64,000 nucleotides of DNA, from contig OU015652.1 in the NCBI GenBank assembly GCA_907165275.2, positions 13,469,001 to 13,533,000 of the forward strand. Reading direction: 5' to 3'. The notes beneath the pieces were generated by a model. It was given only the letters and a program-made list of their open reading frames with translations. It did not search any database and was not told the DNA's origin. Both the position numbers and the translations under genes were made by a program. Below are positions 21,801 to 24,800 of this stretch, in pieces (the stretch's first letter is position 1; each line of letters opens with the position of its first letter). Source of the stretch: Zygaena filipendulae (Eukaryota; Arthropoda; Insecta; Lepidoptera; Zygaenidae).

Positions 21801-24800
21801 CACTGCGAGCACTGTAGGTATGACGTCAATTCAGTATACTACGAAGCCGTTTCTTTGTATATCGCTGTACTGGTTTGTGTTCAAAACGGAACGCAGTCTA
21901 GTAGGTATACTATCATCCATGTCATTGTTATGACTCGCTGTCGACCACTCATTGACCAATCATTGGTCCGAGGTTGATCACGTAATCAAACTGTATAGAC
22001 TGTAGAACTGTGTGTGTATGTACATACTCCGTTCCAAGCGCCCCTCCCCTGGCGTGCGACTAACAGCGTCCCCTGCGCGCTCGCAGTCGAGCTGGTGAAC
22101 TCGCAGGTGGTGCTGAAGGGCTGCGAGACGCGCGGCTACGTGATCCTGTGCGCCGCGCGCGCCGCCGTGCGCCAGCGGGTGCGCCGCGCGCCCGCCGCCG
22201 CCGCCTGGTCCGGCTCGCTGTCCGCCATGCAGTACTACGCCACGGTCAGCGCGGCCGACACCGACCAGCTGGACGGTACGCACCCCCCCGCCCCGCCCCC
22301 CGCCGCCGCCTGGTCCGGCTCGCTGTCCGCCATGCAGTACTACGCCACGGTCAGCGCGGCCGACACCGACCAGCTGGACGGTACGCACCCCCCCCGCCCC
22401 GCCCCCCCGCCGCCGCCTGGTCCGGCTCGCTGTCCGCCATGCAGTACTACGCCACGGTCAGCGCGGCCGACACCGACCAGCTGGACGGTACGCACCCCCC
22501 CCGCCCCGCCCCCCGCCGCCGCCTGGTCCGGCTCGCTGTCCGCCATGCAGTACTACGCCACGGTCAGCGCGGCCGACACCGACCAGCTGGACGGTACGCA
22601 CCCCCCCCGCCCCGCCCCCCGCCGCCGCCTGGTCCGGCTCGCTGTCCGCCATGCAGTACTACGCCACGGTCAGCGCGGCCGACACCGACCAGCTGGACGG
22701 TACGCACCCCCCCGCCCCGCCCCCCGCCGCCGCCTGGTCCGGCTCGCTGTCCGCCATGCAGTACTACGCCACGGTCAGCGCGGCCGACACCGACCAGCTG
22801 GACGGTACGCACCCCCCCGCCCCGCCCCCCGCCGCCGCCTGGTCCGGCTCGCTGTCCGCCATGCAGTACTACGCCACGGTCAGCGCGGCCGACACCGACC
22901 AGCTGGACGGTACGCACCCCCCCGCCCCGCCCCCCGCCGCCGCCTGGTCCGGCTCGCTGTCCGCCATGCAGTACTACGCCACGGTCAGCGCGGCCGACAC
23001 CGACCAGCTGGACGGTACGCACCCCCCCCCCCCCGCCCCCCGCCGCCGCCTGGTCCGGCTCGCTGTCCGCCATGCAGTACTACGCCACGGTCAGCGCGGC
23101 CGACACCGACCAGCTGGACGGTACGCACCCCCCCGCCCTGCCCCCCGCCGCCGCCTGGTCCGGCTCGCTGTCCGCCATGCAGTACTACGCCACGGTCAGC
23201 GCGGCCGACACCGACCAGCTGGACGGTACGCACCCCCCCGCCCCGCCCCCCGCCGCCGCCTGGTCCGGCTCGCTGTCCGCCATGCAGTACTACGCCACGG
23301 TCAGCGCGGCCGACACCGACCAGCTGGACGGTACGCACCCCCCCCGCCCCGCCCCCCGCCGCCGCCTGGTCCGGCCCGCTGTCCGCCATGCCGTACTACG
23401 CCACGGTCAGCGCGGCCGACACCGACCAGCTGGACGGTACGCACCCCCCCGCCCCCCCCCCCCCCGCCGCCCGGTCCGGCTCGCTGTCCGCCATGCAGTA
23501 CTACGCCACGGTCAGCGCGGCCGACACCGACCAGCTGGACGGTACGCACCCCCCCGCCCCGCCCCCCGCCGCCGCCTGGTCCGGCTCGCTGTCCGCCATG
23601 CAGTACTACGCCACGGTCAGCGCGGCCGACACCGACCAGCTGGACGGTACGCACCCCCCCGCCCCGCCCCCCGCCGCCGCCTGGTCCGGCTCGCTGTCCG
23701 CCATGCAGTACTACGCCACGGTCAGCGCGGCCGACACCGACCAGCTGGACGGTACGCACGGACGGTACGATTATTTACATCGAAATGCATCTCACCAACG
23801 CATTTCGATGTAAATAACTCCAAAAGAAGAAATATACCACTGAATTGGCTATATGGACTAAGTTTCCTTCTGCCTTCCCCGAAAGGAATAAACTTCACCA
23901 AAAAAAAAGGGATGTAAAAAAATAAAAAGCTTCCAATTTCAAATAAAGATCTCTCCCCCATAGAGAACATCCAGTGGGTGTGCGAGGAGGAGATCGAGGA
24001 GCGGTGGGCGGGCGCGGAGATCAGCGCGCTGCCCGACGTGCCGCGGCTGGTGGGCAGCGGGCACTCGGCGGGCGTCGTCATCGGCAGCACCGTCGGGCCC
24101 AGCCACGACAAGGGGCTCGCGCAGGTTCGCGCACGCATATTATTACGTAATAACTGTCCCGCGCGGTTTCAACCGCGATAATTTCAGAGTTCCCACAGGA
24201 ATTCCGGATTACAATATAGCCTATGTTACTCAGCGATAATGTAGCTTTCTAATGGTGAAAGAATTTTAGAAATCGGTCCAGTAGTTTTTGAGTTAAATCG
24301 TAACAAACAAAAACTCAAATCTTTCCTCTTTATAATATTGGTATAGACACCCCGCATACTTAAGGCCCTTGCGGAAGTCCACATTACACCACACGCTACA
24401 AAAACATAATTTACATTGTACATATTATAAGAAATTACATTCATTAAGAAATAGTGGAATATCTCTACTTCTCACTGCATGTAGGTATTATAAATGCAAA
24501 AGTAACTCTGTCTCATCATGAAATTTTGCATACACGTTGTCAGGGAGAAAAGGACATGGGTAAGGTAATTTTTTCTTGGGAACTCCAAAATTAACGCAAG
24601 ATGCCGGGAAAAAAGTAGAAAATCGTTGAGAGCGCGCTTTTGTTAAAACTCTTTTTTCTCCAAAACTGAATCGACTTCGATAAATATTTTCAAACAGAAC
24701 TTTGTCTATGCCTGTGTGTTTGTTTCCTATATACATCATATTCGTTTCAATTTCGGTAATTTTAGAAATTTCTTAATTATACCTACTATTGTGGATAAAC

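Follow-up and report, generated by a model that had tools for sequence, protein, structure and literature searches.

The hobbit Gene in the Window

Most of the hobbit (BLTP2) gene lies on the forward strand of the window, the 64,000-nucleotide stretch of Zygaena filipendulae DNA analysed here, with the start of the gene, including the N-terminus, located upstream of it. The draft spliced model of the gene matches the Pfam family Hobbit (PF10344) at 983.5 bits (E 3.3e-295), against a cut-off of 24.5. It comprises 33 exons and is imperfect and unverified, being without the N-terminus, one stretch of 84 residues, another of 17 residues and some smaller pieces. Searches by tblastn with two proteins, P0009 (Battus philenor hobbit) and P0004, of which the P0009 rows with E < 0.5 were considered, locate exons missed by the draft at 1525–1704 and perhaps at 2323–2451, together with the last exon at 34458–34517, past the end of the draft. 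Residues 163–2185 of P0009 align, with gaps, over 558–34517. Besides the rows that fall inside the array described below, the ends of rows from adjoining exons overlap, and one stretch, 16396–16917, is covered by two rows of low identity (42% and 56%). A protein search gave 300 matches, the best 120 of which were used for comparison; the best 35 of the 300 bear the names of moths and butterflies, save for P0020, which is unnamed. Over the aligned part the draft model shares 72.1–76.4% identity with 22 of these 35.

Two neighbouring coding exons are central to what follows, both supported by the gene model and by tblastn, and both present and open. The first spans 22087–22275 on the forward strand, with residues 1580–1645 of P0009 matching 22077–22274 at 89%. 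The second, matched by residues 1646–1709, spans 23964–24124 on the same strand and is preceded by CTCTCCCCCATAG. They were numbered 24 and 25 in an earlier, first-pass annotation of this DNA; those numbers are that annotation's own, for a gene that starts upstream of the window and a draft that misses exons.

Structure of the Tandem Array

A tandem array of 15 copies of a 105–107 bp unit occupies 22189–23759 on the forward strand, covering the end of the first exon and most of the way to the second. It is real in the assembly and unusual. Tandem Repeats Finder (TRF) describes it as period 105, 14.9 copies and 98% match over this interval, and units of this size arranged head to tail place it among minisatellites or variable number tandem repeats (VNTRs), whose units range from about 10 to over 100 bp. 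Each unit consists of the splice donor GTACGC, then a C-rich spacer, then an 81-nt stretch with the same sequence as the exon end, which in the original exon corresponds to 22195–22275. Every one of the 15 copies ends CAGCTGGACG|GTACGC, and CAGCTGGACGGTACG is found 15 times in the array. Chance is no issue, with 16 occurrences of GGACGGTACG seen against 0.07 expected in the window. In addition, the piece of P0009 from residue 1623 to 1645 gives 13 extra tblastn rows inside the array. The proposal of the first-pass annotation, that an exon end had been amplified in tandem together with its donor inside hobbit, is thus borne out by TRF, by the counted copies and by Pfam; its description of the unit was right as to the exon end and the gtacgc donor and too short as to the exon part, put at about 70 nt.

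The 14 donor spacings measure 105 bp in nine cases, 106 in four and 107 in one, the same range as counted earlier. Copies differ by just six inserted C's and seven substitutions. All six insertions lie within C runs, affecting 5 of the 14 units and changing unit length, so that the frame changes within the array do arise from C-run length, as had been proposed. In six of the seven substitutions the new base is C; units 11 and 12 together account for five of all seven. With so few differences, growth of the array looks recent; their scarcity and bias towards C fit very recent copying and also consensus error in C-rich DNA. It is for this reason that the copy number may be questioned, since one, few or some other number of copies, read through a noisy consensus, could have been turned into 15. 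The insertions of C alone, the substitutions to C and their crowding into two units resemble poor consensus in C-rich sequence. On the other side, an array of 1.57 kb is within the span of long reads, an assembler will rarely produce 15 copies from nothing, both neighbouring exons are there, and further tandem arrays and GC-rich expansions are found in this gene. An artefact of assembly or consensus is judged unlikely, though still to be reckoned with.

The unit match stops at 23759, eight bases past donor 15. Immediately afterwards, at 23760–23769 on the forward strand, GGACGGTACG recurs 13 bp beyond its place in the last copy. This sixteenth donor core, GGACG|GTACGA, whose last exon base is 23764, is out of phase by 1 and was missed in the first-pass count, whose 15 identical donors are otherwise confirmed. 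Directly after the array follows a perfect inverted repeat (23771–23817, 18-bp arms and an 11-bp loop), which opens the AT-rich remainder of the intron. No other site in the window matches its 15-base core with fewer than three mismatches.

A motif scan of the minus strand found 14 G-quadruplex (G4)-type motifs at 22276–23680, for example GGGGGGCGGGGCGGGGGGG, equal in number to the spacers. None occurs on the plus strand of the array; of the 18 such motifs on the minus strand of the window, all but four lie in the array.

Splice Donors and Reading Frames

The last exon bases of donors 1–8 lie at 22275, 22380, 22487, 22593, 22699, 22804, 22909 and 23014, and those of donors 9–15 at 23120, 23225, 23330, 23436, 23541, 23646 and 23751, all on the forward strand. 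Donors 1, 2, 4, 12, 13, 14 and 15 are in phase 0 to the exon at 23964, and joined to it they leave the message open to the end of the draft model. Joining donors 3, 9, 10 or 11 leads to a stop at 24865, and joining donors 5–8 or 16 to a stop at 28159. Donor 1 (22276–22281), joined to 23964, gives the conserved hobbit arrangement. Donor 15 (23752–23757) would add 1476 nt, or 492 codons, with no stop, and the consensus unit contains zero stops in all forward frames. Recounting thus gave the same in-phase donors, the same extension and the same stop-free unit as the first pass.

All 15 donors share an identical nine-base context that scores 7.13, mid-range among the other donors of the gene. Local strength therefore gives no preference for donor 1. 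Nor does the score decide anything, as the first 34 kb contain 94 further GTs, outside the array, that score no lower. This equality of local sequence, with an ordinary score for hobbit, favours a reading in which donors are used unselectively, producing a ladder of messages, about half of them frame-shifted and degraded, so that a mildly harmful repeat would lower hobbit output. The stops in later draft exons reached from donors 3, 5–11 and 16 agree with it. A strong loss in a conserved gene such as hobbit would, on the other hand, be expected to be selected against, and unselective use is regarded as improbable.

A further reading holds that the array is coding, with splicing from the final in-phase donor or another late one and up to 492 extra residues varying between individuals. 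It draws on the 7 of 15 donors in phase, on an extension without stops, on a modal unit of 105 bp, divisible by three, and on a frequent preference for intron-proximal donors. The open frames are unsurprising at such composition. When the unit was shuffled by dinucleotides (n=2000), a fraction of 0.24 had no stop in any of the three forward frames; when a 34-nt spacer alone was shuffled the unit stayed open in 2000 of 2000 cases. Open frames were consequently rejected as a coding signal, because composition alone often leaves them open. Moreover, the frame changes within the insert as assembled, with the hobbit frame in 6 of the 14 units and others elsewhere, so that the array does not keep the one frame throughout that marks a coding VNTR; if C-run lengths have been miscalled, this pattern could change. 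Pro, Ala and Arg abound in the translated insert as a whole. An exon of 1665 nt would also be unusual beside the 16–351 nt of the other modelled exons, and the junction is nearly constant in length among relatives, as set out below. Coding use of the array is thus very unlikely, and the hypervariable protein segment envisaged by the first-pass annotation, weakened by the frame changes, the near-fixed junction and the unsurprising open frames, becomes the least supported of its three readings.

Candidate Acceptors Within the Array

The absence of acceptors between copies, also claimed earlier, is no more than probable. Scored with a small matrix built from 32 modelled sites of hobbit's unverified model, two AGs per unit reach 4.2–4.3, against 0.65 for the modelled acceptor at 23964 (left out in turn). 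The matrix cannot rule out the array AGs, because the modelled acceptor scores lower than they do. It is geometry only, namely branch-point spacing and a 26-nt exon, that casts doubt on them. For ATGCAG, upstream A's lie at 5, 55 and 59 nt only, with none 6–54 nt upstream; GTCAG has A's 7–22 nt upstream, but its use would leave an exon of 26 nt. Introns inside the array that use these AGs are, from the layout of the unit, unlikely. A simple exon finder used the array AG sites when permitted, and that part of its output was set aside.

Comparison With Other Hobbit Proteins

Of 35 proteins examined, a sequence pattern caught 32, and in these the residues of the next exon (ENIQW; HHIQW in P0034) come straight after the exon end. 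An alignment of 34 chosen hobbits, with species from moths to a damselfly, gives 11 residues between YATV and I.W in 31 of them and 12 in the other three. A stricter loop pattern caught 33 of the 120 proteins, 32 of them of one length; in the remaining one, that of Manduca (P0029), which lies outside the 34, the junction loop is two residues longer, showing that the length is not absolutely fixed. Donor 1 is considered the likely donor because it alone restores the arrangement of the relatives.

Of the best 120 of the 300 matches, 114 have a single exon-end motif and P0001 has two; the search pattern matched none in the other five. In this set, where extra copies should rank top, P0001 and P0002 alone stand out. 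In P0001, a protein of Ostrinia furnacalis labelled partial, the repeated blocks are larger than the exon end alone; in P0002, from Chrysodeixis includens, the repeated piece lies further along the protein. These repeated blocks of neighbouring residues in P0001 and P0002 reflect either real duplication or annotation error. The array itself was not found in any of the best 120 of 300 hobbit proteins, a set of predicted proteins in which an array spliced out from donor 1 would be invisible. Its absence there could be counted in favour of an assembly artefact, though splicing-out would hide it equally.

Two relatives differ slightly in length near the position of the array's left edge, immediately upstream of the conserved QYYATV strand: the Ala tract of P0027 (Plodia) is longer, and P0032 (Galleria) carries an extra AGWSG-like (GWSG-like) repeat. 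An AlphaFold2 model of P0016, built from 34 sequences for the structure of the loop, had a mean pLDDT of 41.5, too poor to use; it places a strand at 590–604 and no regular structure at the junction, 614–615, and is not counted as evidence.

Origin and Splicing of the Array

Taken together, it is on balance probable that a recent, GC-rich minisatellite has grown over the 3′ border of a hobbit exon and behaves as intron, with donor 1 used. Under this reading the first duplication would have come from slippage or unequal exchange between GCC-rich tracts, one in the exon and the other near the start of the intron; a shared GCC edge between exon and early intron is visible in the sequence. The original intron start may have been GTACGATTATT (alternatively GTACGCACCCC), to judge from the 13-bp spacing of the last two copies of GGACGGTACG. 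Further copying would have been helped by the quadruplex-prone spacer.

The locus seems prone to repeat growth, because the gene contains other GC-rich coding insertions and intronic tandem arrays. Coding insertions of 6, 15, 19, 10 and 27 residues, all GC-rich, occupy columns filled in fewer than one quarter of the 22 lepidopterans. In-frame GC-rich coding expansions (Gly/Ala and AHP repeats) in such sparsely filled columns lie at 19860–20181, 21525–21738 and 28924–29219.

In the RNA, the array would mostly be treated as the start of the intron, with donor 1 joined to 23964 to give the conserved hobbit protein and donors 2–16 acting as passive competitors. Use of donors 2, 4 or 12–15 would yield longer in-frame proteins, and use of donors 3, 5–11 or 16 frame-shifted messages that are likely degraded. 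Should donor 1 be used in this manner, the other copies amount to the decoy splice sites suggested by the first-pass annotation, although nothing shows a selected function for them. In experiments where donors are equal, the intron-proximal site is often preferred, which here would be 15 or 16, and the acceptor at 23964 scores low; both count against donor 1. Choice between such sites also depends on splicing factors, SRSF1 favouring intron-proximal donors and hnRNP A1 intron-distal ones (PMC5585400).

The array may be imagined in a more active role, as a length-variable splice selector. Individuals would then vary in copy number and C-run phase and splice from one or another of 15 identical donors and a sixteenth that is nearly so, the outcome being normal hobbit, hobbit with a long added loop that grows by 35 residues at a time, or a degraded message, thereby tuning hobbit dose. 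We hold this to be the least probable of the readings and highly speculative.

Relation to Known Systems

A precedent for a minisatellite with multiple donors is the human gene IFI6, reportedly described by Turri et al. in 1995. Its unit is 12 bp and essentially the donor consensus, and its 130-residue form arises from the first donor. The 130-residue form predominates, with two downstream repeat units also acting as donors (PMC4526556). Such predominance agrees with use of donor 1 in hobbit. The likeness lies in a minisatellite that offers several donors, here as 15 identical donor contexts, one per unit. The hobbit array differs in its 105 bp unit, in the 81 nt of conserved coding sequence that each unit carries and in spacings that shift the frame.

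Coding VNTRs of the MUC1 type resemble it in that the modal unit is divisible by three. The MUC1 repeats lie within an exon and stay in frame, whereas the hobbit array has a donor in each unit and a changing frame.

Minisatellites that alter the exon/intron structure of human genes are documented in segmental duplications (PMC2812944). As far as the excerpted text of that study goes, their units, some of them 62–228 bp, likewise lengthen exons or introns and mostly keep the frame; the average is four copies of 30 bp and the same text describes no donor arrays, whereas hobbit, one conserved gene, has 15 copies of 105 bp. The model of intron gain by tandem genomic duplication (PMC3443670; PMC2891723) is similar in that a stretch with a splice signal is duplicated. 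In its precise form that model needs AGGT to serve as both donor and acceptor. The hobbit junction is ACGGT and AGGT was not found in the consensus unit; the precise form does not apply, because the unit has ACGGT. CEB1, a G4-forming human minisatellite, is unstable in yeast without Pif1 (PMC2673046). The two arrays are alike in having GC-rich units with G4-type motifs, and this analogy points to, without establishing, expansion by a route like that of CEB1.

Literature searches, one for VNTRs with a splice donor and exon–intron boundary and another for a hobbit tandem repeat together with an intron in Lepidoptera, each found no paper, a result that holds for those searches only. The array indicates that a minisatellite can grow over the exon border of a conserved gene while the surrounding exons stay open. 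Furthermore, 15 donors of the same sequence in one pre-mRNA constitute a natural test of position alone in donor choice, an effect known mainly from artificial two-site constructs.

Other Features of the Window

Several further repeats lie between the hobbit exons. An intronic minisatellite at 15203–15780 holds about 41 copies of GTGACTGGTGACCG, with apparent higher-order blocks and many GT dinucleotides, and ends shortly before the exon at 15818. It was considered as a second donor-derived array, a 14-bp one, and reading its edges gave this no support. A second intronic array, at 18409–18953, comprises about 109 degenerate pentamers of the TGACG type, with 66% matches. Seven tRNA-Asp (GTC) genes are predicted between hobbit exons, at 10481–10704, 12236–12459 and 26974–27839, those of the first two intervals lying inside 152 bp tandem repeats. 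Beyond the gene, the minus strand carries retrotransposon-like frames at 47546–51918, with RNase H and integrase at 47546–49546 and reverse transcriptase at 51103–51918, and long open frames are also present at 54813–56930.
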